Source of the DNA: Phyllobacterium myrsinacearum
Lineage (GTDB): Bacteria; Pseudomonadota; Alphaproteobacteria; Rhizobiales; Rhizobiaceae
Reading direction: 5' to 3'
Assembly: GCF_002980555.1 (NCBI RefSeq)
Contig: NZ_PVBT01000002.1
Location: 496,001 to 560,000, forward strand
Length of the DNA: 64,000 nucleotides
Part shown: positions 40,063 through 58,573 of the stretch, one piece after another
Layout of the letters: the number at the start of each line of letters is the position of its first letter
How positions within the stretch are numbered: position 1 is the stretch's first letter
The notes under the pieces: model-generated
Databases searched by the model: none
Told to the model about the DNA's origin: nothing
What the model saw: only the letters and a program-made list of their open reading frames with translations
Made by a program: the position numbers and the translations under genes

Positions 40063-40539
40063 ATGACCGGAACAATCGATTTGAAGCTGAACATCAATGG
40101 CCGGGAGCAGCAGCTTGCCGTCGAGCCGCGGGTGACGCTGCTGGACGCCCTGCGCGAGCATAGCGGTCTGACCGGAACCAAGAAGGGCTGCGATCAGGGA
40201 CAGTGCGGCGCCTGCACCGTTCACATCGACGGCAAACGGGTGCTCGCCTGCCTGACGCTCGCCGCCCAGGCCGAGGGCCGCGTGATCACCACGATTGAAG
40301 GCATCGCGGCGGAAGATGGCGCATTGCATCCCGTCCAGGCCGCCTTTCTCGAGCATGATGCCTTTCAATGCGGTTATTGCACGCCGGGACAGATCATGTC
40401 GGCAGTCGCCTGCATTCGCGAAGGACATGCCGGGTCAGACGACGAGATTCGTGAATACATGTCGGGCAATCTATGCCGGTGCGGGGCCTATTCCCATATC
40501 GTGGCCGCTGTCCGTGAAGCTGCGGAGGCCGCATCATGA
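40063..40539 (+). CDS. paoA: Aldehyde oxidoreductase [2Fe-2S] subunit (PaoA-type)
   Basis: A 158-residue subunit with two [2Fe-2S] clusters. The plant-type cluster cysteines are in GCDQGQCGACTVHIDG with the fourth in VLACLT, and the second cluster is in QCGYCTPGQIM and GNLCRCGAY. It carries electrons from the molybdenum site to FAD in xanthine-oxidase-family enzymes. AGGAG precedes ATG 40063; there is no Tat signal, unlike the E. coli PaoA (YagT) subunit, so a cytoplasmic location is inferred. Confidence 0.92.
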   Translation: MTGTIDLKLNINGREQQLAVEPRVTLLDALREHSGLTGTKKGCDQGQCGACTVHIDGKRVLACLTLAAQAEGRVITTIEGIAAEDGALHPVQAAFLEHDAFQCGYCTPGQIMSAVACIREGHAGSDDEIREYMSGNLCRCGAYSHIVAAVREAAEAAS

Positions 40540-41519
40540 AGAATTTCACCTATGTCAGGGCAGGTTCGGCGCAGGAGGCGCGCACGGCCTCAGCGCTTGC
40601 CGGGAGCATGATCCTGGCTGGCGGCACCACGCTGCTCGATCTTGCCAAATGCGGGGTTGCCGAACCGGATACTGTCGTCGATATCACGCATCTCGCCGGC
40701 CTTGACCGCATAGAGGTCGACGGGACCGGGGCATCGATCGGATCGCTAGCCCGCATGAGCGCGGTGGCCGATCATCCTGCAATGCAGGACGCTTTTCCGG
40801 CCGTCACGCAGTCGCTGGCGCTGGCGGCCTCCGCGCAAATCCGCAACATGGCGACCATCGGCGGCAACCTGCTGCAGCGCACGCGCTGTCCCTATTTCCG
40901 TGACGCGGCCGTATTTCCCGCCTGCAACAAGCGCAGTCCCGGCTCCGGATGCTCTGCCCTTGGCGGCGTGACCCGCAATCATGCGGTTCTGGGAACAAGC
41001 GACGCCTGCATTGCCACCTATCCGGGTGACCTGGCTGTCGCGCTGGTTGCCTTTGATGCGGTTGTGCATCTGGGAAGCCGCGCCACACCGGTCGATGACT
41101 TCTTCCTGCTGCCCGGCAATCATCCGGATCGCGAACATGCCATGGACCGCGGTGAAATCATCACTTCCGTGACAATACCGCTATCGGCTGCTGCACGGCG
41201 CTCCGTTTACCTCAAGATCCGTGACCGGCAGTCCTATGAGTTTGCTGCCGCCAGCGCCGCTGTCGGGCTTGAACTGGAGGAGGATGGAAGGACGGTCCGC
41301 GATGTGCGCATCGCCCTTGGCGGCGTTGCAACGAAGCCGTGGCGGGTCCGCGCGGTGGAGGCGGCATTGATCGGCAAGGTGCTGGAACCGGAGCTGGTCC
41401 GTCAGGCCAGCCTCCTGTCCATGCAAGGCGCGGCTGATCATGGCGCGAACCATTACAAGATCGATCTCGCCCCGCGTGTGATCACGCGCGCTGTCCTGCA
41501 ACTGGGAGGTCTGGCATGA
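40536..41519 (+). CDS. paoB: Aldehyde oxidoreductase FAD subunit with extra [4Fe-4S] motif (PaoB-type)
   Basis: A 327-residue FAD-binding subunit (AGGTTLLDLAKCG, SAQIRNMATIGGNLLQRTRCPYFRD). The insert RCPYFRD...ACNKRSPGSGCSALGG holds the cysteines that bind the extra [4Fe-4S] cluster characteristic of PaoB and 4-hydroxybenzoyl-CoA-reductase relatives. It overlaps both neighbours by ATGA. Electrons leave through the FAD to an unknown acceptor. Confidence 0.92.
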   Translation: MKNFTYVRAGSAQEARTASALAGSMILAGGTTLLDLAKCGVAEPDTVVDITHLAGLDRIEVDGTGASIGSLARMSAVADHPAMQDAFPAVTQSLALAASAQIRNMATIGGNLLQRTRCPYFRDAAVFPACNKRSPGSGCSALGGVTRNHAVLGTSDACIATYPGDLAVALVAFDAVVHLGSRATPVDDFFLLPGNHPDREHAMDRGEIITSVTIPLSAAARRSVYLKIRDRQSYEFAAASAAVGLELEEDGRTVRDVRIALGGVATKPWRVRAVEAALIGKVLEPELVRQASLLSMQGAADHGANHYKIDLAPRVITRAVLQLGGLA

Positions 41520-43810: not shown

Positions 43811-43825
43811 GATCTATCGGCCAAC

Positions 43826-43858
43826 GGGCATTTCGCGCGCATGGTGTGCGAAATGCCC
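43826..43858 (+). terminator. Terminator hairpin after the aldehyde oxidoreductase operon
   Basis: A perfect 11-bp stem, GGGCATTTCGC (43826-43836) with GCGAAATGCCC (43848-43858), around 11 nt. It starts 15 bases after the operon's last stop codon. No long T-run follows, so it may be only partly efficient. Confidence 0.65.
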
Positions 43859-44041
43859 CGGTTTGAGCATGTTCCTGCGCAGATAGGCGGTCATTCGCAA
43901 AACAATACCTCCTTTCGAAACCGATCTTCTCTACCTTGCGGCAGCGGTGATGCAATGCCATGGCAGCAAAAGCATCTGCACACGGCGTTGCAACGCTGGT
44001 AGAGCTGTATGATCGATTGTTGGTGAGAGGAAACCTGTCCA

Positions 44042-45373
44042 ATGCCTGGCCCCTATGTTGTGCGCGTTCACGGTGACGAAGACCTTCCGGAAAAGGTGGA
44101 CGTGGTCGTTGTCGGTGGCGGTATCATAGGAGCCTCGACGGCGCTCGAACTGGCCGAACGGGGCCTCAAGGTGGCCTTGTGCGAAAAGGGCGGTATCGGC
44201 CAGGAGCAATCGAGCCGCAATTGGGGATGGGTGCGTATATCGCGCCGTGACCCGCGCGAGGTGCCGCTGATGGCGGAGGCGCTGCGCCTGTGGTCCGGTT
44301 TTGATCAGCGGCTTGGCCGCGATACCGGGTATACGCGCGCCGGCATTCTGTTCACGGCGCCGGATGACAAATCCTATGATGAAAATGAGCGCTGGCTGCA
44401 GAATTTGGAGGGCTATCAGCTGGAGAGCCGCATGATCAGCGGCAAGGAGCTCGATGCTCTTCTGCCGGGCGGACACATGCCGCTGAAGGGCGCGCTTTAT
44501 ACGCCGGTCGATGGCCGGGCTGAACCGCAGAAGGCAGCGCCCGCCATCGCCGAAGCGGCGCGCGACAAGGGCGCGGCGATCCTGACGGAATGCGCCGTGC
44601 GGGGCATTGAAACATCCGGCGGCAAGATATCCGGTGTTGTCACGGAACGGGGAACAATCGGATGCAGCGCGGTTGTGCTGGCGGGCGGCGCCTGGTCCAA
44701 TCTGTTTTGCGGCCTCTATGGCATCGACCTGCCGCAACTCAAGGTGCTGAACACCGTCATCCGCACCAAGCCGTTGCAGGGCGGCCCGGAGGCGGCGCTG
44801 TGGTCCAAGGATTTTGCCATCCGCAAGCGTCAGGATGGCGGGTATACCATTGCCTCCGGCCATGAGAACATTGTCGATATCGTGCCCAAATCATTCCGCT
44901 ATGCGCGGCAGTTCCTGCCGGCGCTGAAACTGGAGTGGAATTCATTGTCCTTCCGCCTGGGCGGCCGCTTCTTTGATGAAGCGCGCATTCCGGCCAAATG
45001 GAAAATGGATGAGGCGAGCCCGTTCGAGTACAACCGGGTCCTTGATCCCAAGCCATCGCTGGATCTGTCGAACCGCTTCTTCGACAGCCTCAAGGCGGCA
45101 TTTCCCGTGTTCAATCAGGCGGAGATTGCCCAGCGCTGGGCTGGCTATATCGACGCCACGCCTGATGCTATACCTGTCATTTCTGCCGTCGATGAAATCC
45201 CCGGCTTTCATATCGCCACGGGCTTTTCCGGGCACGGGTTCGGCATAGGACCGGCTGCCGGGCGTTTGATGGCCGATATCGTGACCGGGCGCGCGCCGGT
45301 GGTGGACCCGGCGGCTTTCCGGTTTTCCCGTTTCAGTGACGGTTCAAAAATAACGCCGATCACCGGATTTTGA
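44042..45373 (+). CDS. FAD-dependent oxidoreductase (DAO/DadA-like)
   Basis: A 443-residue flavoprotein. The Rossmann motif VVVVGGGIIGASTALELAERG starts about residue 20, followed by ALCEKGGIGQEQSSRNWGW, and a C-terminal FAD contact HIATGFSGHGFGIGPAAGRLMADI. It resembles D-amino-acid dehydrogenases and the sarcosine/dimethylglycine-oxidase group, and so may oxidise N-methyl or D-amino substrates. It is immediately followed by the serine acetyltransferase gene (12 bases before its ATG), suggesting co-transcription. The 20-residue N-terminal extension before the FAD fold is unusual for DadA. Confidence 0.87.
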   Translation: MPGPYVVRVHGDEDLPEKVDVVVVGGGIIGASTALELAERGLKVALCEKGGIGQEQSSRNWGWVRISRRDPREVPLMAEALRLWSGFDQRLGRDTGYTRAGILFTAPDDKSYDENERWLQNLEGYQLESRMISGKELDALLPGGHMPLKGALYTPVDGRAEPQKAAPAIAEAARDKGAAILTECAVRGIETSGGKISGVVTERGTIGCSAVVLAGGAWSNLFCGLYGIDLPQLKVLNTVIRTKPLQGGPEAALWSKDFAIRKRQDGGYTIASGHENIVDIVPKSFRYARQFLPALKLEWNSLSFRLGGRFFDEARIPAKWKMDEASPFEYNRVLDPKPSLDLSNRFFDSLKAAFPVFNQAEIAQRWAGYIDATPDAIPVISAVDEIPGFHIATGFSGHGFGIGPAAGRLMADIVTGRAPVVDPAAFRFSRFSDGSKITPITGF

Positions 45374-45385
45374 GTGTGGTGCACA

Positions 45386-46195
45386 ATGACCAATGCAACG
45401 GCAGTTTCGAAAAAACGCGCGCTATGGTTGCGTATTCTTGCAGAGGCAGCGGCGGTGAGCGAGCGTGAACCGACGCTTTCCGCTTTTCTGCAGCATGCGG
45501 TATTGCGTTTCGACAATCCTGAGGATGCGCTTTGCCTGCAGCTGGCGGATGTTCTTGGCAGCCCGGTCGTGACAAGCGAAAAGCTGCGGGGTCTGTTCAG
45601 CGGCGTGCTGGAGCAGAACCGGACGGTGCTGTCCGGCATGGAGAGGGATATCAGCGCCGTTCTCGAACGCGATCCCGCCACCAGGAGTGCCCTGCATGTG
45701 CTGCTCTATCTGAAGGGCTTTCATGCGATCCAGGTCCACCGGTTCGCCCATCATTTGTGGAATACGGACCGGGAGGATATGGCGGCATTCCTGCAATCGC
45801 GTTCATCGCGCGTTCTGCAGGTCGATATTCATCCGGCCGTGCGCATGGGAAAGGGCGTGTTCTTTGATCATGCCACCGGTATCGTTGTCGGCGAGACGGC
45901 CGTGATCGAAGACAATGTTTCGATTCTGCAGGGCGTGACGCTGGGCGGCACGGGAAAAGATACGGGAGACAGGCATCCCAAGGTGCGCCATGGCGTTCTC
46001 ATCGGTGCCAGTGCAACCGTCCTTGGCAATATCGAGATCGGCGTCAATTCCAAGATCGGGGCCGGTTCGGTTGTCCTGAAATCCGTCGAAAACAGGAAAA
46101 CGGTGGCGGGTGTTCCCGCCAAGGTTATCGGCGGGGTGCAGGAAAGGGAGCCCGCCCGTTCGATGAACCAGATTCTTTATGATGTCGGGCTCTGA
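45386..46195 (+). CDS. cysE: Serine O-acetyltransferase
   Basis: A 269-residue enzyme that forms O-acetylserine from serine and acetyl-CoA, the first step of cysteine synthesis. The N-terminal helical domain (about residues 15-140) precedes the left-handed beta-helix. It shows DIHPAVRMGKGVFFDHATGIVVGET (catalytic His/Asp) and hexapeptide repeats through GNIEIGVNSKIGAGSVV. ATG 45386 is taken over the GTG at 45374. Placement beside flavin and transporter genes ties the locus to sulfur assimilation, or it may be the main housekeeping copy. Confidence 0.93.
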   Translation: MTNATAVSKKRALWLRILAEAAAVSEREPTLSAFLQHAVLRFDNPEDALCLQLADVLGSPVVTSEKLRGLFSGVLEQNRTVLSGMERDISAVLERDPATRSALHVLLYLKGFHAIQVHRFAHHLWNTDREDMAAFLQSRSSRVLQVDIHPAVRMGKGVFFDHATGIVVGETAVIEDNVSILQGVTLGGTGKDTGDRHPKVRHGVLIGASATVLGNIEIGVNSKIGAGSVVLKSVENRKTVAGVPAKVIGGVQEREPARSMNQILYDVGL

Positions 46196-46737: not shown

Positions 46738-47619
46738 ATGATTTTCAAAAACGTCGCCTCCATGGGGCTGGGGGTAATATTGGCATTGGCCGCTGCAACG
46801 CCGGGCTTTGCCCAGGTTGTGAAGATCGGCAGCAAGAACTTTACCGAACAGTTCGTGGTGGCTGAAATCTATGCGCAGGCGCTGGAAAAGGCCGGTGTGA
46901 AGGTTGAGCGGCGCACCAATCTTGGCGCGACCCTGATTGCCCATTCGGCACTGCTGAATGGCGAAATCGATCTTTACCCGGAATATACGGGCACCGCTCT
47001 GGCGGCGGTGGTGAAGGGCGATCTCTCCGGCTCGGCCGAAAAAATCTACGGCGAAGTCAAGGATTACTACGAAAAGACCCTGCAGCTGACCTTGCTCCAG
47101 CCGACCAATATCAACAACGGCTATGCCATCATCACGCTTCCCGAAACCGCGGAAAAATACAAGCTCAAGACGCTGACAGACCTCGGACCGGTTTCGAAGG
47201 ACCTGAGTTTCGGTGCGGAAGGCGGGTTTGGCGAACGCAAGGATGGCTTGCCCGGTCTCAAGCAGACTTATGGCATCGTCTTCAAGGATTTCCGTATTTT
47301 TGCCAAGCTCGGTATCCGTTACAGCGCCCTGACCAGCAAGAATATCGACGTTTCCTATGGCTTTGCCACGGATTGGCAGATCGCCGACAACAAGCTGGTT
47401 GTGCTCGCCGACGACAAGAACCTGTTTCCGCCCTATTACCTCGTGCCTGTCGTGCGCCAGGACACCCTGGCCAAAAATCCCAAGATCGCGGAAGTCCTGA
47501 ACAAGGTCAGCCCGCTCTTGAACAATGAGAACATGCGGGAGCTGAATGCCGCCGTCGAGCGCGACAAGAAGGAACCGAAGGAAGTGGCGGAAGCCTTCCT
47601 GAAGGAAAAGGGCATCTGA
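46738..47619 (+). CDS. Glycine-betaine-type ABC transporter substrate-binding protein (OpuBC/OsmF family)
   Basis: A 293-residue periplasmic binding protein. A signal peptide ends near residue 25 (TPGFAQ), followed directly by the OpuAC-family start VKIGSKNFTEQFVVAEIYAQ and the family's LYPEYTGTAL segment near residue 82. Such proteins bind quaternary ammonium compounds: glycine betaine, choline, carnitine and, in EgtUV-type systems, ergothioneine. It heads the transporter operon. A 13-bp hairpin follows the gene, consistent with excess binding protein over membrane subunits. Ligand unknown. Confidence 0.9.
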   Translation: MIFKNVASMGLGVILALAAATPGFAQVVKIGSKNFTEQFVVAEIYAQALEKAGVKVERRTNLGATLIAHSALLNGEIDLYPEYTGTALAAVVKGDLSGSAEKIYGEVKDYYEKTLQLTLLQPTNINNGYAIITLPETAEKYKLKTLTDLGPVSKDLSFGAEGGFGERKDGLPGLKQTYGIVFKDFRIFAKLGIRYSALTSKNIDVSYGFATDWQIADNKLVVLADDKNLFPPYYLVPVVRQDTLAKNPKIAEVLNKVSPLLNNENMRELNAAVERDKKEPKEVAEAFLKEKGI

Positions 47620-47705: not shown

Positions 47706-48323
47706 TTGAACTGGGCTCCCAAAAACATTCCGGAAATTCTGACCGCAACCTGGCAGCATCTTGTGTTGTCGGTTTCATCGGTTCTGATCGGGCTCGTCAT
47801 CGCGCTGATCCTTGGGATCATCTGCGCCCGGCGCCCGCGGTTCTATGCCGTTGTTCTGACGATCACCGGCATCATCTTCGTCATCCCCAGCCTTGCGCTG
47901 TTTGCACTGCTGATCCCATGGCTTGGCCTCGGCACCAAGCCGGCGCTGGTTGGCCTTTCCTCCTATTGCCTGCTGATTCTGCTGCGCAATGTGGTGACCG
48001 GCCTGCGCGGCGTTCCCGCCGATGTGCTGGATGCCGCCGATGGCATGGGCTACAGCGCCTGGCAAAGGCTGGTGCGTATCGAATTGCCCCTGGCCCTGCC
48101 GCTCATCGTTTCCGGCATCCGCATCGCGCTGGTGACGGTCATCGGCATCGCCACCGTGGCCGCCTTCATCGACGGCGGCGGTCTTGGAACCATCATCCTG
48201 ATGGGCATCGACCAGAGCTATACGGAGAAAATCCTCGTTGGCGGTATCCTGACGGCGCTGATGGCGACGTTCTTTGACCTCGTTCTGAGCCAGGCGGAAA
48301 AAGCCCTGGTTCGCTGGCGTTGA
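47706..48323 (+). CDS. Betaine-type ABC transporter permease (OpuBB/YehW-like), first
   Basis: A 205-residue permease with about five helices and the coupling loop VPADVLDAADGMGYSAWQRLVRIELPLALP. The start is TTG 47706: an in-frame stop lies six codons upstream and no Met codon occurs early in the frame. Two different permease genes in one operon fit the YehW/YehY arrangement of OsmF-type importers. The next gene follows after 9 bases. Confidence 0.9.
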   Translation: MNWAPKNIPEILTATWQHLVLSVSSVLIGLVIALILGIICARRPRFYAVVLTITGIIFVIPSLALFALLIPWLGLGTKPALVGLSSYCLLILLRNVVTGLRGVPADVLDAADGMGYSAWQRLVRIELPLALPLIVSGIRIALVTVIGIATVAAFIDGGGLGTIILMGIDQSYTEKILVGGILTALMATFFDLVLSQAEKALVRWR

Positions 48324-48332
48324 GGAGCTGAC

Positions 48333-48974
48333 ATGCTGATCACCGCCTTCAACTGGATCGTCAACAACCAGCCTGAGTTCCTGCGGGCGCTCGGCCAGCA
48401 TCTGGTCATGTCCGGTGTCTCGCTGGTGTTTGCGCTGGCTATCGGCCTGCCGCTTGCCGTTCTCATCATCAATCGCGGCGGGCTGGCCTTTGCGGTCATC
48501 AATTCCATCAATGCGCTGCGCACGATCCCCAGCCTTGCCATTCTCGCCATCATGATGCCGCTGCTCGGTATCGGCCTGTGGCCATCGATCGTCGCGCTAA
48601 CCGTGCTCGCGCTGCCGCCCATCCTGCTCAATGCCTTCATCGGGCTGCGCGATGTCGATCCCGATGCGGTGGAGGCTGCCATCGGCATGGGCATGAGCCG
48701 CGGCCAGGTGCTGCGCAAGATACGCATCCCGCTGGCTGCGCCCGCCATGTTCGCCGGTGCGCGCACCGCTGCGGTGCAGGTTCTCGCCGGTGCAACGCTC
48801 GCTCCCTTCATCGGCGGCGGCGGCCTTGGCGATTTCATCGCCGTCGGCATCAGCATGATGGACATGTCGCGCCTTCTGGTCGGCGCGATACCCATTGCCA
48901 TCCTGGCGCTGGCCACGGAATTCACGCTCGGCCTCGCCGAAAAAATCTTCTTCGCAGAAAGAACATCCGCATGA
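48333..48974 (+). CDS. Betaine-type ABC transporter permease, second
   Basis: A 213-residue permease, with helices starting at about residue 20 and the coupling loop VDPDAVEAAIGMGMSRGQVLRKIRIPLAAP. The motif NSINALRTIPSLAILAIMMPLLG is shared with OpuBB/OpuCB proteins. GGAG lies before its ATG and its stop overlaps the ATPase start (ATGA). It should form a heterodimeric channel with the preceding permease. Confidence 0.91.
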   Translation: MLITAFNWIVNNQPEFLRALGQHLVMSGVSLVFALAIGLPLAVLIINRGGLAFAVINSINALRTIPSLAILAIMMPLLGIGLWPSIVALTVLALPPILLNAFIGLRDVDPDAVEAAIGMGMSRGQVLRKIRIPLAAPAMFAGARTAAVQVLAGATLAPFIGGGGLGDFIAVGISMMDMSRLLVGAIPIAILALATEFTLGLAEKIFFAERTSA

Positions 48975-49903
48975 TCACCATGGAACACGTCACCAAGCGC
49001 TACGGAGAAGGCGGCGCTGCTTCGGTTGATGATCTCAGCCTGACCGTTCCCGAAGGCTCGACGGTGGCGCTGATCGGGCCGTCGGGTTGCGGCAAGACCA
49101 CGACCATGCGCATGATCAACCGGCTGATCGATCCGACCGAAGGCAGGATCATTGTCAACGGAGAAGACGTCACCAAGGTTGATCCGGTGATCCTGCGTCG
49201 CCATATCGGTTATGTGATCCAGCAGGTAGGCCTGTTTCCGCATATGACCATCGCCCAGAACATCGCTGCCGTGCCCAGGCTGCTTGGCTGGGATGAGGCG
49301 CGGATCCGGAACCGGACCGACGAGCTCCTGCATCTCGTTGGTCTTGATCCGGCGGAAATGCTCAAGCGCTATCCCCGGCAGCTCTCCGGCGGCCAGCGGC
49401 AGCGCATCGGCGTGGCGCGGGCGCTTGCGGCCGATCCCCCCGTGCTGCTGATGGACGAGCCGTTCGGCGCCATCGATCCGATTGCCCGCACCCGCCTGCA
49501 GGACGAGTTCCGCCAGATTTTGCAGCGGGTGCGCAAGACGGTGGTGCTGGTGACACATGATCTGGATGAAGCCATTCGCCTGGGTGACCGCATCGCCATC
49601 ATGAAGAGCGGCAGGATCGTCCAGTATGACACGCCCGATGCGATCCTTTCGCACCCCGCTGACGCATTTGTCGAAAACTTCGTCGGCATAGACCGGGCGA
49701 TCAAGCGCCTGAGCCTGTTTACTGTCAGCGATGCCATGACGGCGGACAGGCCGCGGGACGGAGCGCATCCCGTTGCCTCCACCAGCAACCTGCGCGATGC
49801 GCTGGCGCTGATGGTCGCCGCAAACAGCGATGTCCTTGCCGTCGTGGATACGGCCGGAACCGTCACCGGCCGGTTGACCCGCGACGCCATTTTTTCGGTC
49901 TGA
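48971..49903 (+). CDS. Betaine-type ABC transporter ATP-binding protein (OpuCA-like)
   Basis: A 310-residue ATPase with Walker A GPSGCGKTT, LSGGQRQRIGVARAL and Walker B VLLMDEPFGAID. The Q-loop IGYVIQQVGLFPHMTI is typical of the OpuA/ProV group. After residue 240 a single CBS-like segment is present (TVSDAMTADRP ... RDALALMVAANSDVLAVVD), shorter than the tandem CBS domains of OpuAA. ATG 48971 overlaps the permease stop; the longer frame beginning at 48578 is an artefact inside that permease. Confidence 0.92.
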   Translation: MITMEHVTKRYGEGGAASVDDLSLTVPEGSTVALIGPSGCGKTTTMRMINRLIDPTEGRIIVNGEDVTKVDPVILRRHIGYVIQQVGLFPHMTIAQNIAAVPRLLGWDEARIRNRTDELLHLVGLDPAEMLKRYPRQLSGGQRQRIGVARALAADPPVLLMDEPFGAIDPIARTRLQDEFRQILQRVRKTVVLVTHDLDEAIRLGDRIAIMKSGRIVQYDTPDAILSHPADAFVENFVGIDRAIKRLSLFTVSDAMTADRPRDGAHPVASTSNLRDALALMVAANSDVLAVVDTAGTVTGRLTRDAIFSV

Positions 49904-49957
49904 CCGAACCACGTCCGATCAGGCCTGCCGATAGAAACTCACCTTTGGAGAGTGTTT

Positions 49958-50698
49958 ATGTCCATCAGCTATCGTTCCCGGGAAGTGCCCGCTGTTCTTA
50001 TTGAACCAACCTATCGCCGCATCCGCCTGAAGCGGGGGGAAGAGGTGATCGCCGACAGCACGCAGGCCATTGTCATTTATGAGAATGGCGGCCATCCCGT
50101 TTACTACCTGCCGAAAACGGATTTTCACGATGGTGTTCTCCAGCCATCGGAAAAGTCGGGGGCATCGCCGGTACTCGGCGCAAGGCGCTACTGGTCGCTT
50201 GACGGTGCCGGGGACAGCGCCTGGAGCTATGAGCATGTGCCGGAGGGCGTGCCGGATCTTGCCGGTTATGCGACTGTCGCATGGAGTGCGGTACGCTGGT
50301 TTGAGGAAGACGAGGAAATCTTCGGCCATCCACGCAATGTTCACTGGCGGGTCGACGCGATCGACAGCAAGCGCCGTGTCGAGGTCGTTGTCGATGGCAC
50401 ACTGGTGGCGCGCACGAACCGCGCGGTATTCCTGTTCGAGACCAGCCTGATCCCGCGTTACTACTTTCCCGTGGAGGATCTGATCGCCGGGACGCTGGCG
50501 GATAGCGCGCTGCACACCTACTGCCCCTATAAGGGCAGGGCGTCCTACTATCACTTCGATCTCAATGGAAACCGCCACGAGAATATCGTCTGGTATTATC
50601 CAGAGCCGCTCCACGAAAGCGGACGGATCAAGGGATTGATCTCGTTCTACAATGAAAAGGTCGACGAAATCCGTGTCAGCGCCGGAGATGCGGAATGA
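49958..50698 (+). CDS. Tandem DUF427-domain protein
   Basis: A 246-residue cytoplasmic protein with two DUF427-like domains. The first covers about residues 15-100 (RIRLKRGEEVIADSTQAIVIYE, HPVYYLPKTDF) and the second about 130-230 (VEVVVDGTLVARTNRAVFLFE, IPRYYFPVEDL, TYCPYKGRASYYHF). The repeated pattern of strand, RxxxxY/FE and PxYYxP shows the duplication. The family function is not established. It is coupled to the following flavin monooxygenase (ATGA) and is therefore probably part of that pathway. GGAGAG precedes ATG 49958. Confidence 0.82.
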   Translation: MSISYRSREVPAVLIEPTYRRIRLKRGEEVIADSTQAIVIYENGGHPVYYLPKTDFHDGVLQPSEKSGASPVLGARRYWSLDGAGDSAWSYEHVPEGVPDLAGYATVAWSAVRWFEEDEEIFGHPRNVHWRVDAIDSKRRVEVVVDGTLVARTNRAVFLFETSLIPRYYFPVEDLIAGTLADSALHTYCPYKGRASYYHFDLNGNRHENIVWYYPEPLHESGRIKGLISFYNEKVDEIRVSAGDAE

Positions 50699-51663
50699 TG
50701 CATATCGGCCTGTCGCTGACGCCGTTCGGCCATCATCCGGCCGCCTGGCGCGCAAAAAGCGGCCAGCTGGACGCGCTCGATTTCAATCACATGGCGGCGC
50801 AGGGGAAACAGGCCGAGGCTGGCGGGCTGGATTTCGTCCTGCTGGCCGATAGCCTTGGTCAGCGGCCTCATGATGATCTGTCGCCGCTTGCCGTGCCGTT
50901 CGAGCCAACCATGCTGGTCTCGGCGCTGGCGACGGCCACACGCAGCATCGGCTTGATTGCCGCCGCAGCAACGCATCAGCACGAACCCTATAATCTCGCC
51001 CGGCGTTTTGCCTCCCTCGATCTGATCGGCGACGGGCGTACCGGCTGGAACGTCATCGGTTCCGGCGATCCCGATCGCGATCAGGAATATCTTGCCGTGG
51101 TATCCGGGCTCTGGAACAGCTGGGACGATGATGCCTTTGTCCATGACAAGGCCCGGGGCCGGTTTTTCGAACCTGATAAAATGCATGTCCTCAACCACAA
51201 GGGCGCGCATTTCACCGTGCGCGGCCCACTCAATGTCAATCCGTCACCGCAGGGCAGGCCGGTGATCAGCCATGTCCTGACGCCGGACACTGTTGAGATT
51301 GCCGCCCGTTCGGCGGATGTGGTTTTCCTGCCGGATACATTGGGAGCACTTGCCATCAAACTGGTTGAACGCCTTGGCGCGTATGGGCGCCAGCGCGGCG
51401 ATATCCGGCTGCTGGCAAACATCGTTCCCCCCATCGGCACGGCTGCCAGCATTGCCGACCAGATGCAGAAGCAGGCAGTGGCGGCCGGTCTCGACGGATT
51501 TGTCCTTCTGCCGCCCCGTGCGCCCGAAAATATTGCCAGCTTCGTCGATGAGGTCATTCCGGAATTGCGGCGGCGCGGCGCCTTCCGTCCTGCCTATGAT
51601 GCCGTGACATTGCGCGGCCATCTCGGCCTTGCGCATCCGGTCCGGCAGGAGCGTGCATCATGA
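50695..51663 (+). CDS. LLM-class FMN-dependent monooxygenase (short NtaA/SnaA/DszA-like)
   Basis: A 322-residue bacterial-luciferase-like flavoprotein. It carries the family sequence GGLDFVLLADS, RFASLDLIGDGRTGWNVIGSGD and the C-terminal VIPELRRRGAFRPAYD...LRGHLGL, as in NtaA/SnaA/DszA enzymes that use FMNH2 and O2 on amines or organosulfur compounds. It is about 100 residues shorter than the two related proteins in this locus. Overlaps on both sides (ATGA) place it in the operon. Confidence 0.88.
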   Translation: MMHIGLSLTPFGHHPAAWRAKSGQLDALDFNHMAAQGKQAEAGGLDFVLLADSLGQRPHDDLSPLAVPFEPTMLVSALATATRSIGLIAAAATHQHEPYNLARRFASLDLIGDGRTGWNVIGSGDPDRDQEYLAVVSGLWNSWDDDAFVHDKARGRFFEPDKMHVLNHKGAHFTVRGPLNVNPSPQGRPVISHVLTPDTVEIAARSADVVFLPDTLGALAIKLVERLGAYGRQRGDIRLLANIVPPIGTAASIADQMQKQAVAAGLDGFVLLPPRAPENIASFVDEVIPELRRRGAFRPAYDAVTLRGHLGLAHPVRQERAS

Positions 51664-52982
51664 GTACGGACCAGATGAAACTCGGTGCCTTTCTGATGGC
51701 TGGCGGCCATCACATCGCCGCTTGGCGCCATCCCGACGCCCATGCCAATGCCGGGGCCGATATCGGCCATTTCATCCAGCTGGCCCAGACGGCCGAACGG
51801 GCCAAGTTCGACATGGTCTTTATCGAAGACGCCGCGGCCATTCGCGAGCGTAACCCGGAGATTGCCAGCCAGGCGGCGCGCTCAACCAGTTTCGAGCCGC
51901 TTAGTCTGCTGGCGGCGCTGGCGGTAAATACCTCCCGCATCGGTCTCGTTGCCACGGCATCCACCACCTATAACGAGCCCTATGGCCTTGCCCGCACATT
52001 CGCCGCGCTTGATCAGCTCAGCGGCGGGCGGGCCGGATGGAATCTGGTAACGTCCGCCAGTGACCTTGAAGCGGAGAACTTTGTCTCGAGCGGCTTGCGG
52101 CCGCATGGCCAGCGCTATGAACGGGCAGAGGAATTTGCCGAGGCTGCCGCCGCTGTCTGGGATAGCGTGGACGAGGGGGCCTATGTCCTCGACGCGGAAC
52201 GGGGTGTCTATGCCGATCCGGCAAAACTTCATCCGGTCGATCACCGTGGCACGCATTTCACCGTCACGGGCGTACTGGACAGCCAGAGATCGCCGCAGGG
52301 CAGGCCGCTGATGGTGCAGGCCGGTGCCTCCGACGTTGGCAAGGACCTTGCCGCGCGGACCGCCGATGTGGTCTTTTCCGCCGCCCAGACCATGGGCGAA
52401 GCGCAGGCCTTCTATACCGATGTGAAAGCCCGGCTGGCTAAATTTGGCCGTCAGACGGACGATCTCAAGATCATGCCCGGCGTTTCGCCCATCGTCGGCG
52501 AAACCGAAAGCGAAGCGCGGGCAAAGTATGAAGCGCTGCAGGAGCTGATCCCGGATCAGGTCGGCGTGGCGCTGCTGGCGAGCTATCTCAGCCTCAAGGA
52601 CCTGTCGAACCATCCGCTCGACGGTCCTCTGCCGGATATGCCGCAGACCGATGGCATCCAGAGCAGGCAGCAGCTCATCATCGATCTCGGCCGCAGGGAA
52701 AACCTGTCCATCCGGCAACTGGCACGGCATTTCGCCGGAGCGCGCGGCCATTGGCAGCTGATCGGCACACCCGTCCAGATCGCCGATGCGCTGGAAGAAC
52801 GGTTCCGCGGCAAGGCAGCCGACGGGTTTAATGTCATGCCGCCGCTCTTTCCCACGGGGCTTGATGATTTTGTGAGACTGGTCGTGCCGGAACTGCGCCG
52901 CCGCGGCCTCTTCCGCCGGGAATATGAAGGGCGCACGCTGCGGGAAAATCTGGGTGTCAGAACACCGGCCCGTTCGTCATGA
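51660..52982 (+). CDS. LLM-class FMN-dependent monooxygenase (NtaA/SnaA/DszA family)
   Basis: A 440-residue flavin monooxygenase of normal family length. Motifs are TAERAKFDMVFIEDAAA, TYNEPYGLARTFAALDQLSGGRAGWNLVTSASDLEAENF, HRGTHFTVTGVLDSQRSPQGRPLMVQAGASDVGKDLA and the C-terminal VPELRRRGLFRREYEGRTLRENLG. Relatives desulfurise or N-dealkylate small molecules using reduced FMN from a separate reductase; such a reductase is encoded at 57980. The substrate is unknown. Confidence 0.9.
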   Translation: MSTDQMKLGAFLMAGGHHIAAWRHPDAHANAGADIGHFIQLAQTAERAKFDMVFIEDAAAIRERNPEIASQAARSTSFEPLSLLAALAVNTSRIGLVATASTTYNEPYGLARTFAALDQLSGGRAGWNLVTSASDLEAENFVSSGLRPHGQRYERAEEFAEAAAAVWDSVDEGAYVLDAERGVYADPAKLHPVDHRGTHFTVTGVLDSQRSPQGRPLMVQAGASDVGKDLAARTADVVFSAAQTMGEAQAFYTDVKARLAKFGRQTDDLKIMPGVSPIVGETESEARAKYEALQELIPDQVGVALLASYLSLKDLSNHPLDGPLPDMPQTDGIQSRQQLIIDLGRRENLSIRQLARHFAGARGHWQLIGTPVQIADALEERFRGKAADGFNVMPPLFPTGLDDFVRLVVPELRRRGLFRREYEGRTLRENLGVRTPARSS

Positions 52983-53998
52983 GCAGAGAGAACAGCATGA
53001 AACCGATCTATATCGACTATCTGAATGCCCTCGACATCGAGGCGCTGCAACTGACCGATGCGGAGATTCTGGCCGCCATCGAAACCTCGCTCGCTGCACA
53101 GGGCAATGGTCAGACCGTGATCGAGCCGCGGGTGCACCTGGAGCCTGATGAAACGTTTCATGGCCATTTCAACGTGCTGCGCGGCTATGTGGCGCCGCTC
53201 AATCTGGCGGGCGTCAAGATCGTTGGCGATTTCGTTGATAATTATAAGCTGAACTACCCTTCCGAATTCGGCGTGCTCAATCTGTTCGATCCGCGCACGG
53301 GTGCGCCAAAAGCCATTCTGGATGCCACTGTCATCACCGACATGCGCACCGGCGCGATCACCGCGCTCGGCGCAAAACATCTGGCGCGCAGGAATTCCAA
53401 GGTGCTTGGCCATATCGGCGCGCGCGGCACGGCCTACTGGAATGTGCGGCTGCTCGACCATCTCTTTGATTTCGATGAAATCCGCGTGCATTCGCGCCGT
53501 CCGGAAAGCCGCGATGCCTTTGCCAAAAAACTCGCCGATGATCTCGGCAAACCGATAACCGTCACCGACAATTGGCAGGCCTGTGTCGAGGGTGCCGATA
53601 TCGTGGTCGAGGCATCGCGCCTGCCGGAACCGCAGCCCATGCTGAAGACCGAATGGATCAAGCCCGGCGCCTTCGTCGTGCCCTACGGCACGATGAGCGC
53701 GGTGGAACTGTCGCTCACCGATATCATGGACAAGCTGGTGGTTGATGACTGGGGCCAGTGCAAGGGCGGCAAATTCGGCTCGCTGCGCGCCCACGTCGAG
53801 GCAGGAAAACTGTCCGAACAGACGCTGCATGCGGAACTTGGCCAGATCGTCGCCGGCCACAGGACGGGACGCGAGAACGACGGCGAAACCATCCTGTTCT
53901 GGCACAGGGGCCTGTCGCTCAGCGATATCGCGCTCGGCTATGCCATGCTCGAGAAGGCGAGGGCAAACAATATCGGCCAAAGGTTGCGGTTCGCATGA
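52979..53998 (+). CDS. Ornithine cyclodeaminase/mu-crystallin family protein
   Basis: A 339-residue NAD(P)-dependent enzyme of the OCD/mu-crystallin family, which includes ornithine cyclodeaminase, alanine dehydrogenase and ketimine reductases. Visible features are LNLFDPRTGAPKAILDATVITDMRTGA and the nucleotide site KVLGHIGARGTAYWNVRLL (GxxGxxG form), with VEASRLPEPQPML and AFVVPYGTMSAVE downstream. A role in forming or reducing an imine is likely, but not specifically ornithine. ATG 52979 overlaps the previous stop; ATG 52997 is an alternative. Confidence 0.85.
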   Translation: MSRENSMKPIYIDYLNALDIEALQLTDAEILAAIETSLAAQGNGQTVIEPRVHLEPDETFHGHFNVLRGYVAPLNLAGVKIVGDFVDNYKLNYPSEFGVLNLFDPRTGAPKAILDATVITDMRTGAITALGAKHLARRNSKVLGHIGARGTAYWNVRLLDHLFDFDEIRVHSRRPESRDAFAKKLADDLGKPITVTDNWQACVEGADIVVEASRLPEPQPMLKTEWIKPGAFVVPYGTMSAVELSLTDIMDKLVVDDWGQCKGGKFGSLRAHVEAGKLSEQTLHAELGQIVAGHRTGRENDGETILFWHRGLSLSDIALGYAMLEKARANNIGQRLRFA

Positions 53999-55473
53999 AC
54001 ACGCTCGTTCTCTCGGGATCAGGCGTCACCATCGCCGATATTGCTGCCGTCGCGCGCCAGGATACTATCGTCACCGCGACGCCCGGTGTATGGGCGAGGC
54101 TGGCCGAGGCGAGGGCCGTGCTTGATGCGGCAGCGGCTTCAGGGCAGCAGATTTACGGCCTGAACACGGGGCTTGGAGCCAATCTCAAGACGGCGGTTGC
54201 CGATGAAACGGGTGAGTTTCAGCCGCAGCTGGTGCGCGGACGCGGTGCCGGTGTCGGCCCCGCACTGCCGCGCGACGAGACCCGGGCCGTCATGGCGGCG
54301 CGTCTCTCCATGCTGGCAACCGGCGGTTCCGGCCTGTCGCCGGATGTTTTTGCCGATCTGCTCGCGCTTATCAATCACAAGGTGCATCCGCTGGTCCCAT
54401 CCATCGGGTCGATCGGTGCGGGCGACCTTGTCCTGCTCTCCGCCATTGCCCAGACCATGATCGGCGAGGGGCAAGCCGAATATGACGGCGTGGTGCTCGC
54501 CTCAGCCGAAGCTCTGTCAAAAGCTGGTCTTCGACCCTCGGTGCTTGGTCCGAAGGATGGGTTGTCGCTTCTCAATGCGTCGGCGGTCTCGGCGGGGAAG
54601 GGTGCGCTGGCCGTTGCCGACGCCCGTGTTTTGCTCGACTATCAGCGGCAGGCCGCTGCGCTCAGCTTTGAGGGGCTTGGCGGCAACCCGCTTATCCTCA
54701 CCCCAGCAATTCAGCGCGCGCGCCCGGCAGCCGGGCAAATGCGGGAAGCCGAAGGGCTCCTTGCCCGTCTCGACGGTTCGTCGCTGTATGACGCGCGTGC
54801 AGCCATTCAGGACCCGCTCAGCCTGCGCTGCGTCGCCTCGATCCACGGGGCGCTGGCGCATGCGCTGGATGCGGCAAGAGAAGCCGTGGAGATTGAGCTG
54901 AATGCGGCGGCGGACAATCCGCTGGTGCTTGTCGATGAGAACAGGGTGCTTTCAACGGGGAATTTTCACACACCGTCTTTGGCGCTGGCGTTTGAAACCC
55001 TGGGACTTGCCATTGCGCAGACGGCGCTTGCCTGTGCGGCCCGGTTCATTCAACTGACCGGCTCCGGCCGCAATGGCCTGCCGCGCTACCTTTCATCGGT
55101 CGGCGGCGCATCCGCCGGTTTTGTCCCGCTGCAGAAGACGGTTACGGCGCTCGCCGGTGCGATCCGGCACAAGGCCAATCCGGTCATGCTGGATTTCCTG
55201 CCCGTTTCCGAAGGGGTTGAGGATCACGCCACCCAGACGCTCCTCGCGGTTGCAAAATGCGCCGATATGCTCGGCCTCTGGCGCCATCTCATTGCCTGCG
55301 AAATGCTGGCTGGAGCGCAGGCCGTCGATCTGCGCGCGGGTCACCGTTGCGGCCGCGGTACGCAGCAGACCCATGATCTGGTGCGCTCCGTTGCCGGACC
55401 TCTCATCGAAGACCGTCCGCTTGGACATGAGGTATCCCGCCTTGCGGAGCGTCTGCGGGATACCGGCGCGTGA
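53995..55473 (+). CDS. HAL/PAL-family lyase homologue lacking the MIO-forming Ser
   Basis: A 492-residue member of the histidine/phenylalanine ammonia-lyase superfamily: QIYGLNTGLGAN (Tyr54 lid), LLNAS (Asn194), IQDPLSLRC (Gln272, Arg278), STGNFHTPSLA and VSEGVEDHA (Glu409). The MIO cofactor normally forms from Ala-Ser-Gly in GSVGASGDL; here the sequence reads GSIGAGDL (residues 138-145), with the Ser deleted. The Tyr after QDP is Leu275. MIO-dependent deamination therefore seems impossible. Elimination of a better leaving group such as trimethylamine, as reported for ergothionase-type lyases, is a reasonable inference. ATG 53995 overlaps the previous stop (ATGA). Confidence 0.85.
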   Translation: MNTLVLSGSGVTIADIAAVARQDTIVTATPGVWARLAEARAVLDAAAASGQQIYGLNTGLGANLKTAVADETGEFQPQLVRGRGAGVGPALPRDETRAVMAARLSMLATGGSGLSPDVFADLLALINHKVHPLVPSIGSIGAGDLVLLSAIAQTMIGEGQAEYDGVVLASAEALSKAGLRPSVLGPKDGLSLLNASAVSAGKGALAVADARVLLDYQRQAAALSFEGLGGNPLILTPAIQRARPAAGQMREAEGLLARLDGSSLYDARAAIQDPLSLRCVASIHGALAHALDAAREAVEIELNAAADNPLVLVDENRVLSTGNFHTPSLALAFETLGLAIAQTALACAARFIQLTGSGRNGLPRYLSSVGGASAGFVPLQKTVTALAGAIRHKANPVMLDFLPVSEGVEDHATQTLLAVAKCADMLGLWRHLIACEMLAGAQAVDLRAGHRCGRGTQQTHDLVRSVAGPLIEDRPLGHEVSRLAERLRDTGA

Positions 55474-55499: not shown

Positions 55500-56444
55500 C
55501 TACTTCTGAAGCTTGGACGCCAACAGTGCGGGCGCGTTCACACAGCGCAGGCATTCATCGATGAACCATGATTTGAAAGCCGCAACAACGGACCGTTGTG
55601 TGCTTCTGCGCGGCGTGGTGATGCAATAGGGATTGGCAAGGTCGAGCACGTGATTGCAGGCAACGACCAGCTCTCCCGCTTCCACTTGGCGGGCACAGAA
55701 CAATCCCTGCGCGAGCGTTATGCCCAATCCGCCGCGCGCCAGGTCGAGCGCAGCCATGGACGAGTTGGCGGTCATCCCATGCTGGATATGGCGGCCGGGC
55801 GTCACACCGGCGGAGGCGAACCAGTTTCGCCATGATGGAAAGGAGGCTCCCGCAGGCCCCCAGTCGGTGTGGATCAAGGGGGCGGACAGCAACCTTTCCG
55901 GAGAGGCCATCGGCTCATGCCCGGCCAGGAACTGCGGAGAACACACCGGATAGACCGCATCGGTGCCAATCGCTTCGGTGACATGTTCCGGATAATGAAA
56001 GACACCGTAGGAAAGACGCATGTCGATGAGATCACGGTCGAATGGCACTGGATCATCTTCACCCCTGAGGGAGATGTCGACCGGGCCGTGGATATCGACG
56101 AATCGCGGCAGACGCGAGGAGAGCCAGCCCATGGCAACGGATGGTGCCACCGACACCACCAGCGAGGACCGCTGATTGCCGCTGCCAAGCTCGCGCGACA
56201 CGCTCCTGAGTTCATTGAAGGCATTGGCAAGCCGTGGAAAAATCTCCAATCCAGCCTCGGTCAGCACGACACGCCGGTTGATGCGATGAAACAGCTTGCG
56301 TCCCACCTGATCCTCAAGTGCGCGAATGAGCTGACTGACCGCAGCGGCCGAAATCGCCAATTCTTCGGACGCAGCGACAAAGCTTCCACAGCGGGCGGCG
56401 GCCTCGACCGCCTGCAAGCCGCGTAAAGAGGGGATACCCGTCAT
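55500..56444 (-). CDS. LysR-family transcriptional regulator (GcvA-like)
   Basis: A 314-residue regulator. The N-terminal winged HTH is LQAVEAAARCGSFVAASEELAISAAAVSQLIRALE (split about residues 8-42), with LFHRINRRVVLTEAG. The effector domain resembles GcvA-type proteins (WRNWFASAGV, LDLARGGLGITLAQGLF). ATG 56444 has GGAG about 9 nt upstream; the longer frame to 56495 runs through the operator palindrome. It is divergent from the third flavin monooxygenase and converges on the lyase gene, so it probably controls this locus. Confidence 0.92.
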   Translation of the reverse strand: MTGIPSLRGLQAVEAAARCGSFVAASEELAISAAAVSQLIRALEDQVGRKLFHRINRRVVLTEAGLEIFPRLANAFNELRSVSRELGSGNQRSSLVVSVAPSVAMGWLSSRLPRFVDIHGPVDISLRGEDDPVPFDRDLIDMRLSYGVFHYPEHVTEAIGTDAVYPVCSPQFLAGHEPMASPERLLSAPLIHTDWGPAGASFPSWRNWFASAGVTPGRHIQHGMTANSSMAALDLARGGLGITLAQGLFCARQVEAGELVVACNHVLDLANPYCITTPRRSTQRSVVAAFKSWFIDECLRCVNAPALLASKLQK

Positions 56445-56460
56445 CCCATCACTCCGGAAT

Positions 56461-56479
56461 AGATAAGTTGAACTTATCT
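56461..56479. promoter_or_regulatory. Perfect 9-bp inverted repeat, probable LysR operator
   Basis: AGATAAGTT (56461-56469) and AACTTATCT (56471-56479) around a single G, between the divergent LysR and flavin-monooxygenase genes. It lies 17 bases upstream of the LysR start and about 85 bases before the GTG of the monooxygenase, and contains a T-n11-A element of the LysR type. Confidence 0.7.
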
Positions 56480-56564
56480 TTCTTGCAGAAATCATCGCTT
56501 TTGCAAAGGGAAAGCCTCGCCTAATTTAGCTGGCAGCGCAGGACATGGCCATTCCGGAGCAAGC

Positions 56565-57983
56565 GTGATCAACGAAACACCGGCCAAGGGAAGGTCTGCC
56601 ATGCCGCGCCGTCAGATGATTTTAGCTGGCTTTTTCTTCAACCCCCAGGGAGATCATCGCCTGTCATGGCGGCATCCGCGTGCACCCGGCCGTGAATTTC
56701 TCGATCTGGATTACTATCGCCGATTGGCAGAGGCTGCGGAGCGCGCCAAGCTCGATACGATCTTCATCGCCGATCATCTCGGCATCTGGGATACCTATGG
56801 CAGCGGGCTGGCGCATTATGCCAATCCCAGGCTGGAACCTTTATCGCTCGTATCGGCTCTATCTGCAGTCACCAAGGACATCGGCTTCATGGTGACGGCG
56901 TCGAGTTCCTACAACGAACCATTCAACACTGCCCGCATGTTTGCTTCGATGGATCACATCAGCAGAGGCCGGGTCGCATGGAACGTCGTGACATCGGCTC
57001 TGGAAGAAGAGGCCGCCAACTTCGGCCGCGATGCCAATATCGAGCATGCGGTCCGCTACGAGCGTGCCGCCGAGTTCCTCGATGTGGCCAAAGCCCTGTG
57101 GGACAGCTGGGAGGACGATGCGCTTGTCATCGACAAGGCCACGGGCCTTTTCGCCCATCGCGAACACGTGCATTATCTCGACCATCGGGGAAAGCACTTC
57201 AAGGTAAAGGGGCCGCTCAACGTACCGCGGCCGCCGCAGGGCCATCCGGTGATCGTCCAGGCCGGGTCGTCCGATGCGGGCAGAAATCTTGCTGCGGCAC
57301 ATGCGGATGTGCATTTTGCCGTCATTCGCAGCGAGGCGGAAGGGCTGAGCTATCGCGCGGATATCAACAGCCGCCTGGCGAAATATGGCCGCGCGCCGGA
57401 AAGCCTCAAGCTCCTGCCGGGTATTCTGCCGATCGTCGCTGCCTCCGCATCCGAAGCGCAGGAAAAACAGGACTATCTCGAGACTTTGATGCTGGATGCG
57501 GTTGCCGTCGACCTCCTTTCCAGTTGGGCGGGGGTGGATTTGTCCCGCTATCCGCTCGATGGACCAGTACCGGACCTGCCTGACGAGGGCACGTTCAACG
57601 GCTGGCGCACCTGGCTGGCGCTTGTCAAGGACGATGCCAACAAGGGTCTTTCCATACGCCAGCTCGCCCGCAAGATCGCCAATACCGGCTCGGTTCCGCT
57701 GGTTGCCGGGACCGCGTCGCAAGTCGCTGATCAGCTGGAGGCCTGGTTCGTTTCGGGGGTGGCTGACGGGTACAACCTGATGTTTCCGCTGCTGCCGGAG
57801 GATTGGTTGAATTTCATGCAGACCGTGGTGCCGGAATTGCAAAGGCGCGGTTTGTTCAGAACCGAGTACGAGCCCGGCACATTGCGCGACCGTCTGGGGC
57901 TGGCGCGCCCCCAGAATGCATTTGCTGCCCGTCGCGAAGCGCCGGATCGCGTCCGGGCCGGAAAAGCCGGGATTCGGCCATGA
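56565..57983 (+). CDS. LLM-class FMN-dependent monooxygenase (third copy)
   Basis: A 472-residue NtaA/SnaA/DszA-family flavoprotein. Motifs are SWRHPRAPGREFLDLDYYRRLAEAAERAKLD, ARMFASMDHISRGRVAWNVVTSALEEEAANFG, HRGKHFKVKGPLNVPRPPQGHPVIVQAGSSDAGRNLA and VPELQRRGLFRTEYEPGTLRDRLGL. It is clearly paralogous to the 51660 protein. GTG 56565 follows GGAG by 5 nt; ATG 56601, after GGAAGG, is an equally plausible start. It overlaps the FMN reductase start (ATGA). Confidence 0.9.
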   Translation: MINETPAKGRSAMPRRQMILAGFFFNPQGDHRLSWRHPRAPGREFLDLDYYRRLAEAAERAKLDTIFIADHLGIWDTYGSGLAHYANPRLEPLSLVSALSAVTKDIGFMVTASSSYNEPFNTARMFASMDHISRGRVAWNVVTSALEEEAANFGRDANIEHAVRYERAAEFLDVAKALWDSWEDDALVIDKATGLFAHREHVHYLDHRGKHFKVKGPLNVPRPPQGHPVIVQAGSSDAGRNLAAAHADVHFAVIRSEAEGLSYRADINSRLAKYGRAPESLKLLPGILPIVAASASEAQEKQDYLETLMLDAVAVDLLSSWAGVDLSRYPLDGPVPDLPDEGTFNGWRTWLALVKDDANKGLSIRQLARKIANTGSVPLVAGTASQVADQLEAWFVSGVADGYNLMFPLLPEDWLNFMQTVVPELQRRGLFRTEYEPGTLRDRLGLARPQNAFAARREAPDRVRAGKAGIRP

Positions 57984-58573
57984 GCAACCGGAAAGTTCTC
58001 GCCATATCCGCAAGCCTTTCCGCGACATCGAAGACCGCAAGGATGGTCGAAGCGGTCCTGGAAGAATTGCGCGGACAAAAAATCGACACGGAGCACGTCG
58101 TTCTGCGGCATCTCGATCCCGGTGCCCTGCTGTCAGCCGACGCGCAGGCCCCGTCGGTGGCGTCGTTCCTGGAAAAGGTTGCCGCCGCCCATGGTCTGAT
58201 CATCGCCACGCCGATTTACAAGGCATCGTTTTCCGGCCTGTTGAAAGCGGGTCTGGACGTCCTCCCGCAGTTTGCGCTGGCTGGGAAGGTCGTCTTGCCG
58301 CTCGGCACGGGCGGCAGCCTCGCCCATGTCCTGGCGCTTGATTACGGTCTTCGGCCGGTGTTTCAATCCATGGGTGCCCGGCATGTGGTCCAGTCGCATT
58401 ACGTGTGCGAGAGCGATTTTCCCAAAACCGGCGAAATGATATCGCTGCTCGACCCGCTTTGGGCCGCACTTCGTCACGCCTGCGAGAACTTCGTCTATTC
58501 CTTGACCGATGATGAAAGGGCGGCGATGCTCGGACATCCGCGCGGTGTGGTCCCTCGTGTGAACAGCCAATGA
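57980..58573 (+). CDS. NAD(P)H-dependent FMN reductase (SsuE-like)
   Basis: A 197-residue flavodoxin-fold reductase. SASLSATSKTARM at the N-terminus binds FMN phosphate, and TPIYKASFSGLLKAGLDVLPQFALAGKVVLPLGTGG matches SsuE, which supplies FMNH2 to the alkanesulfonate monooxygenase. Its ATGA overlap with a flavin monooxygenase strongly suggests that it feeds the three LLM enzymes in this locus. ATG 57980 is chosen because the longer frame starts inside the previous gene. Confidence 0.92.
   Translation: MSNRKVLAISASLSATSKTARMVEAVLEELRGQKIDTEHVVLRHLDPGALLSADAQAPSVASFLEKVAAAHGLIIATPIYKASFSGLLKAGLDVLPQFALAGKVVLPLGTGGSLAHVLALDYGLRPVFQSMGARHVVQSHYVCESDFPKTGEMISLLDPLWAALRHACENFVYSLTDDERAAMLGHPRGVVPRVNSQ

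Follow-up and report, generated by a model that had tools for sequence, protein, structure and literature searches.

What reaction could an enzyme of the histidine ammonia-lyase fold catalyse once the residues that build its electrophile are gone? The question is raised by a gene in a stretch of 64,000 nucleotides from the soil bacterium Phyllobacterium myrsinacearum (RefSeq assembly GCF_002980555.1, contig NZ_PVBT01000002.1, positions 496,001 to 560,000), referred to here as the window; its numbering is used for all coordinates, and L-numbers designate the related loci compared with it. The gene encodes a protein of 492 residues, the window lyase, and is the last of an operon that runs importer, DUF427 protein, two luciferase-like monooxygenases (LLM1 and LLM2), an ornithine cyclodeaminase/mu-crystallin family protein (OCD) and lyase. 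The 4-methylidene-imidazole-5-one (MIO) electrophile is commonly regarded as what defines these enzymes as a family. Judged by its sequence, the window lyase is a real, intact and conserved member of an apparently MIO-free clade beside ergothionase, for which any substrate is only a candidate. The reading that we favour, with some reserve, is that of a lyase that would expel a tertiary amine, probably trimethylamine, from an imported betaine with an anionic side chain.

The shortened loop of the window lyase

The reading frame starts with ATG, overlaps the stop of the preceding OCD gene (ATGA) and contains no internal stop. Pfam analysis assigns the protein to PF00221 (440.7 bits), and its AlphaFold2 (AF2) model (pLDDT 90.2, pTM 0.92; 26 sequences in the alignment) matches histidine ammonia-lyase (HutH) structures with TM-scores of 0.90-0.94. 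The loop reads S136-I-G-S-I-G-A142-G143-D144-L145 and, as GSIGA-GDL, is one residue shorter than GSVGASGDL. When it is aligned with Pseudomonas putida HutH (SVGASGDL), Ala142 and Gly144 of that enzyme are retained and its Ser143 lies opposite the gap; an Ala-Ser-Gly (ASG) triad able to form MIO is thus absent. A preliminary description of the window, made from its letters alone, had reported a loop devoid of the MIO triad, which is confirmed, and had ascribed it to the clean deletion of the Ser codon. This second point holds in part: the triad has no Ser, but the identity of the lost residue is ambiguous from the alignment. The other residues that it listed as remaining (Tyr54, Asn194, Gln272, Arg278 and Glu409) are all present in the alignment with HutH, and the Leu that it saw in place of Tyr after QDP is Leu275, at the position of HutH Tyr280. 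A further difference, which it did not mention, is Arg83 at the position of HutH His83.

Conservation among relatives

The lyase alignment comprises 111 non-duplicate rows, of which 109 stem from the window and the related loci and two are PDB references. The rows were collected for their resemblance to the window lyase or their proximity to its OCD neighbour and are therefore not a random sample. Among the 110 rows other than the window lyase, 84 relatives were picked by identity alone (at least 50%, with an actual range of 59-80%), at least three pairs of which look like duplicate records (L045/L125, L026/L126 and L028/L122). All 84 are one residue short and devoid of ASG, the loop being SIGA-GDL without any triad Ser in 79 and SIGD-SDL, which retains a Ser beside Asp, in five; Arg at the HutH 83 position and Leu at the HutH 280 position are found in all 84. 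Within a set of 85 rows picked partly by loop type, Tyr54, Arg83, Gln272, Leu275, Arg278, Phe324 and Glu409 are identical throughout, and the Asn194 position is occupied by Asn in 80 and by Ser in five. An intact ASG occurs in five rows of the alignment, all of HutH type and all below 50% identity to the window lyase. Eighteen of the 19 rows at 33-50% identity lack it, and the seven rows below 33% comprise four with ASG and three with a short loop. Comparison with a relative from the same genus (L023) returns dN 0.136 and dS 1.035 (dN/dS ~0.13), dS being saturated in two further comparisons. Because the 84 relatives all lack the triad and dN/dS is ~0.13, the loop is neither an assembly error nor a sign of decay, and sequencing error and pseudogene were both ruled out. 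The preliminary description had likewise held the protein to be intact, had raised the question of whether close homologues share the deletion, and had reasoned that homologues with an intact ASG would betray a sequencing error; the relatives at 59-80% identity share the deletion without exception.

The missing electrophile could also denote a non-catalytic paralogue acting as a binding or regulatory protein, and at two Mesorhizobium loci (L084 and L095) the lyase is indeed frame-broken, split over two frames. Such a role is nonetheless very improbable, in view of the other active-site residues conserved in the 85 rows, the dN/dS of ~0.13 and the precedent for MIO-free catalysis provided by ergothionase.

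Lyase matches at 60% identity or more were found in 8 of 199 Rhizobiaceae-level genomes, the window's own genome counted. In five Mesorhizobium members of the window clade (L076, L109, L116, L119 and L123), the SIGD-SDL loop is accompanied by Ser for Asn at HutH 195, so that two active-site positions are altered together.

Relation to HutH and ergothionase

A PF00221 search of the host genome returned two proteins, the window lyase and a protein encoded on contig C10 (L001) that has the normal SVGASGDL loop, His83 and Tyr280, its gene lying ~1.3 kb from the sole urocanase match in the genome. As the host retains an ordinary hut pathway, the window lyase probably does something else. This HutH and that of P. 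putida (1gkm) share the fold and most active-site residues with the window lyase but differ from it by the intact ASG, His83 and Tyr280, the host's own HutH being 32% identical to it. The window lyase scores 358.4 bits on NCBIfam hutH (TIGR01225, an equivalog family), under the cut-off of 539.15, and with its loop one residue short a plain HutH was ruled out.

The nearest solved structure by sequence is the ergothionase of Treponema denticola (6s7j, E 9.3e-80), which is also the nearest fold (TM-scores 0.94 and 0.93, Foldseek with the AF2 model). The structures of this enzyme, 6s7j and 6s7q, are reportedly those of Maurer et al. 2019. Like the window lyase, it possesses the PF00221 fold, a short loop (SSIGEGDI, aligned as SIGE-GDI) and Leu for HutH Tyr280 (QDPLSFRC), and it retains the active-site Arg and Glu. 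Ergothionase releases trimethylamine without MIO, according to PMC13405746. The loss of MIO in the PF00221 fold is therefore not new, and the uniqueness of the short loop that the preliminary description implied is not borne out, since the loop and the Leu are common to the T. denticola enzyme and short loops occur in several other clades.

The two enzymes are 33% identical, and the T. denticola protein has His and Ser at HutH positions 83 and 195, respectively, together with an NKD motif. A tree was built from 52 lyases with the loop columns removed (quick IQ-TREE, SH-aLRT support only, midpoint root, no phenylalanine ammonia-lyase (PAL) outgroup). It resolves a window clade of 15 rows, a GTGD/GASD group of six, an ergothionase-type group with NKD of four, a GAAD group of eight, a second GAAD group of three and a HutH group of eight, each being one side of a branch with support of 95-100; eight other short-loop rows are scattered over four places. 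The 38 short-loop rows cluster together (support 96), and the presence or absence of ASG requires one change on the unrooted tree, which leaves its direction, loss or gain, undefined. The ergothionase-type rows (T. denticola, Polaromonas, Paracoccus and Sinorhizobium meliloti) form their own clade, and both this clade and the window clade have an SH-aLRT of 100. If the two are forced into one clade, the log-likelihood falls by 20.7 (approximately unbiased test, p-AU 0.0013), a grouping named after inspection of the tree and in which the T. denticola row sits on a long branch flagged by the program. The NKD motif, His83 and Ser195 are common to the four ergothionase-type rows and serve here as our own criterion for this type, to which no published definition corresponds. 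At these places the window lyase has NLKT, Arg83 and Asn194, and its clade has Arg83 and, in all but five rows, Asn at HutH 195. An alignment and tree against HutH and ergothionase, as the preliminary description had proposed, thus place the window lyase in its own clade beside ergothionase.

That the window lyase is an ordinary ergothionase, converting ergothioneine to thiourocanate and trimethylamine, would agree with the closest solved relative by sequence and fold, with the shared loop type and Leu275, and with the ergothioneine-type contact residues of the importer described below. We consider it unlikely: the window lyase has the short loop but carries NLKT, Arg and Asn for NKD, His83 and Ser195, and it falls outside the separate ergothionase-type clade, the joint clade being rejected. 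A plain filing as ergothionase was rejected on these grounds. The single urocanase match in the genome also speaks against it, although a divergent thiourocanate hydratase could escape detection.

Other lyases deserve mention in their own right. Distant PF00221 proteins on long tree branches (L127:8418-10004, L186 and L196) lack ASG and have other short loops, this group displaying HGMA-GEI, MGMD-GETI, LGMD-GEMI and NGGA-GEVL. The lyases of L042 (9085-10575) and L201 (at 14068) exhibit a still shorter loop, SVGY---L, and pair together (98), their placement beside HutH being unsupported (48). On S. meliloti pSymA (L137:13929-18912), an ergothionase-type lyase annotated hutH bears an apparent N-terminal signal sequence, as read by eye, and lies near a gene annotated dimethylsulfoniopropionate lyase.

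Proposed reaction and substrate

The residue roles used here are those that we take from work on HutH to apply to the window lyase. Tyr54 would remove the beta-proton, assisted by Glu409 and Asn194, Arg278 would grip the substrate carboxylate and Arg83 a side chain that is acidic or anionic. The group expelled from the betaine would be a tertiary amine, most probably trimethylamine, and its loss would yield an alpha,beta-unsaturated acid. Ammonia leaves poorly when MIO is absent; a quaternary amine leaves better and in this scheme would do so well enough to dispense with the electrophile. Since such an amine leaves more easily and the other active-site residues remain, elimination of a tertiary amine is favoured. 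Position 83 is presumably the side-chain selectivity position, that of His89 in tyrosine ammonia-lyase (TAL), and the TAL His89Phe structure 2o78 is among the solved matches listed for the window lyase. The invariant Arg at this position suggests that the side chain of the substrate is anionic or acidic. According to PMC12535398, a variant of PAL that cannot build MIO no longer hydroaminated either of the two substrates tested. The MIO-independent elimination that the preliminary description put forward, with loss of a quaternary amine as its example, remains the likeliest chemistry given the nearest structure, an ergothionase, and a betaine-type importer; what it had not foreseen is an Arg83 that differs from both HutH and ergothionase.

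The same Arg could be read in another way, as in an aspartase-like reaction in which a small anionic side chain, carboxylate or sulfonate, bound to Arg83 would acidify the beta-proton, the amine being secondary or quaternary. In keeping with this are the invariance of Arg at the position that presumably selects the side chain, the imino-acid reductases among the solved OCD relatives, and a sister lyase of Rhizobium leguminosarum preceded by genes for a YeiH-type exporter, a CoA-transferase, a short-chain dehydrogenase/reductase (SDR) and a MaoC protein, which would fit an acrylate product and sulfite release. However, the aromatic-pocket residue Phe324 is retained, and imidazole acrylates are indicated by the HutC repressors and hut genes that lie close to sister clades or to OCD, so that we regard this account as improbable.

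Under the favoured betaine reading, the leading candidate substrate is a histidine betaine oxidised on sulfur, for example ergothioneine sulfonate, a choice that is tentative and rather doubtful. It is our first guess because HutC repressors, YeiH-type exporters or hut genes occur at some sister-clade or OCD loci, outside the window, where they hint at sulfur and imidazole chemistry, and because of the ergothioneine sulfonate catabolic pathway that Yan et al. 2022 reportedly described in Agrobacterium radiobacter. If the lyase of that pathway belonged to the window clade, the clade would be less novel. Bacterial ergothioneine catabolism is also said to proceed in five steps starting with a MIO-free lyase (Beliaeva et al. 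2021), none of whose later enzymes was seen in the window operon. PMC13405746 counts A. radiobacter among the organisms in which an ergothioneine trimethylamine lyase has been identified with certainty. No report on the window clade was found in the open-access literature searched.

The operon and its importer

The genes of the operon are listed in Table 1. Overlaps of four bases join DUF427 to LLM1, LLM1 to LLM2, LLM2 to OCD and OCD to the lyase, and the same arrangement, importer-(DUF427)-LLM1-LLM2-OCD-lyase, is met again in Phyllobacterium as well as in Rhizobium-type loci. The betaine would enter through the OpuC/EgtU-type importer, and the two LLM monooxygenases and the OCD protein may process substrate or products. 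The importer binding protein matches structures of the OpuBC/OpuCC/EgtUC type. At the eight EgtUC ergothioneine-contact positions, as given in PMC9732360 and matched by motif and near-equal spacing rather than by superposition, six residues are identical (K33, T86, N127, Y129, R167 and Y233) and two conservatively changed (Tyr83 for Phe and Phe209 for Tyr), so that the protein appears to possess the aromatic cage and the carboxylate-binding residues of EgtU/OpuC. As to the monooxygenases, the string 7e36, which designates a solved match of both LLM1 and LLM2, occurs in PMC8027225.

Table 1. Location of the lyase, its diagnostic positions and the surrounding genes in the window
Feature	Position	Strand	Basis
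OpuAC-type substrate-binding protein, EgtUC contact residues kept or conservatively changed	46738..47619	+	PF04069; residue spacing
ABC permease 1, listed with a TTG start (uncertain)	47706..48323	+	
ABC permease 2	48333..48974	+	
Importer ABC ATPase	48971..49903	+	
Protein with tandem DUF427 (PF04248), found in some of the related operons	49952..50698	+	
LLM1, shorter LLM protein	50695..51663	+	Best solved match 3sdo; also 7e36 chain A
LLM2, NtaA/DmoA-family FMN monooxygenase	51660..52982	+	Best solved match 7e36 chain B
OCD, ornithine cyclodeaminase/mu-crystallin family protein	52979..53998 (alternative start 52997)	+	PF02423
Apparently MIO-free PF00221 lyase, 492 aa	53995..55473	+	PF00221, 440.7 bits; AF2 model; Foldseek
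Arg83 codon, position of HutH His83	54241..54243	+	Arg in 84/84 relatives at ≥50% identity
Shortened MIO loop SIGSIGAGDL	54400..54429	+	Translation and alignment with HutH
LysR-type regulator (GcvA-like), convergent to the lyase; operon link unproven	55500..56495	-	
LLM3, third NtaA/DmoA-family monooxygenase; link unproven	56565..57983	+	
SsuE-type FMN reductase, which may supply flavin to the monooxygenases; link unproven	57980..58573	+	TIGR03567, 168.3 bits (cut-off 164.05)

The OCD-family protein and its neighbourhoods

The nearest solved relatives of OCD are named alanine dehydrogenase and pyrroline-2-carboxylate reductase. Its conservation exceeds that of the lyase, with a mean column identity of 81% (n=13) versus 60% for 26 lyases, the two sets being different. 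With OCD as a bait, a contig scan returned at least 571 relatives, the best 80 of which were drawn as loci, several of them ending at contig ends. In 77 of these 80, a lyase is encoded on the same strand no more than 300 bases away, the exceptions being a contig end (L071) and the two frame-broken lyases. The readable lyase rows (n=76) comprise 70 with SIGA-GDL, five with SIGD-SDL and one with HGMA-GEI. At E <= 1e-100 and with the window's own genome included, the OCD subfamily was found in 27 of 385 genomes sampled across the class and in 11 of 398 sampled across the phylum. From the adjacency it seemed that OCD might strictly mark the pathway of the lyase, a view weakened by the distant loci discussed below.

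Several observations weigh against the betaine reading as a whole. Arg83 and the missing NKD motif separate the window lyase from ergothionase, so that the leaving group may be other than trimethylamine. The binding protein of the importer, LLM1 and LLM2 are present together in other loci too, but are limited to 17 of the 80 OCD-bait loci, so that the importer is a feature of the window's own subgroup. Neighbours resembling fatty-acid desaturases, Rieske proteins or ketopantoate hydroxymethyltransferase (PanB) replace them in 54, mostly from Mesorhizobium; none of the 80 has both sets and nine have neither. No hut or other ring-degrading gene was seen in the window operon. The 24 more distant OCD loci cover stretches of 3.9-17.1 kb, several of them truncated by a contig end; a lyase match is missing from 17 of these stretches, and OCD stands beside an ASG-type HutH in L132, L136 and L202, with urocanase as well in L132 and L202. 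The role of OCD is thus not tied to MIO-free lyases, and its presence, with no lyase or beside such a HutH, is no proof of a betaine pathway. Finally, an earlier proposal of MIO-independent PAL chemistry is mentioned in PMC12535398.

Further neighbours were noted at single groups of loci. In L134 (Rhodobacteraceae), sterol-desaturase-family and ketopantoate-hydroxymethyltransferase genes lie beside the OCD-lyase pair. Near OCD or the lyase, a protein resembling PhnD/SsuA (one copy was scanned and matched PF12974) is encoded in L043, L044, L046, L047, L129-L133 and L136; five copies read by eye have no obvious signal peptide, for which reason the protein may be cytosolic.

A wider reading of the family

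A broader view, possible but less likely than its converse, is that an entire radiation of PF00221 lyases, and not ergothionase alone, does without MIO. At least four clades besides ergothionase, namely the window clade, the GTGD/GASD clade and the two GAAD clades, would act on different betaines by means of Arg or His at the selectivity position. OCD, beside members of each, would be a new reductase of their common product or substrate type, for instance in the reductive desulfonation of imidazole-2-sulfonate. Several of these lyase genes are annotated histidine ammonia-lyase; if the betaine reading favoured above is right, such annotations of rhizobial genes are wrong, and a set of soil and symbiotic bacteria converts betaines to a free amine and acrylates by a route so far overlooked. 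The family also provides a natural series in which the need for MIO can be studied.

Other genes of the window and host

Upstream of the importer (window 40006-46195), a xanthine-dehydrogenase-like trio, a DadA-like oxidoreductase and a CysE-like acetyltransferase were recognised by eye. These genes were dropped as a sulfur pathway because they do not recur beside the importer in the loci drawn. Elsewhere, the host encodes two MttB-family (PF06253) methyltransferases (C1:551078-552571 and C1:562710-564218), not linked to the window operon.

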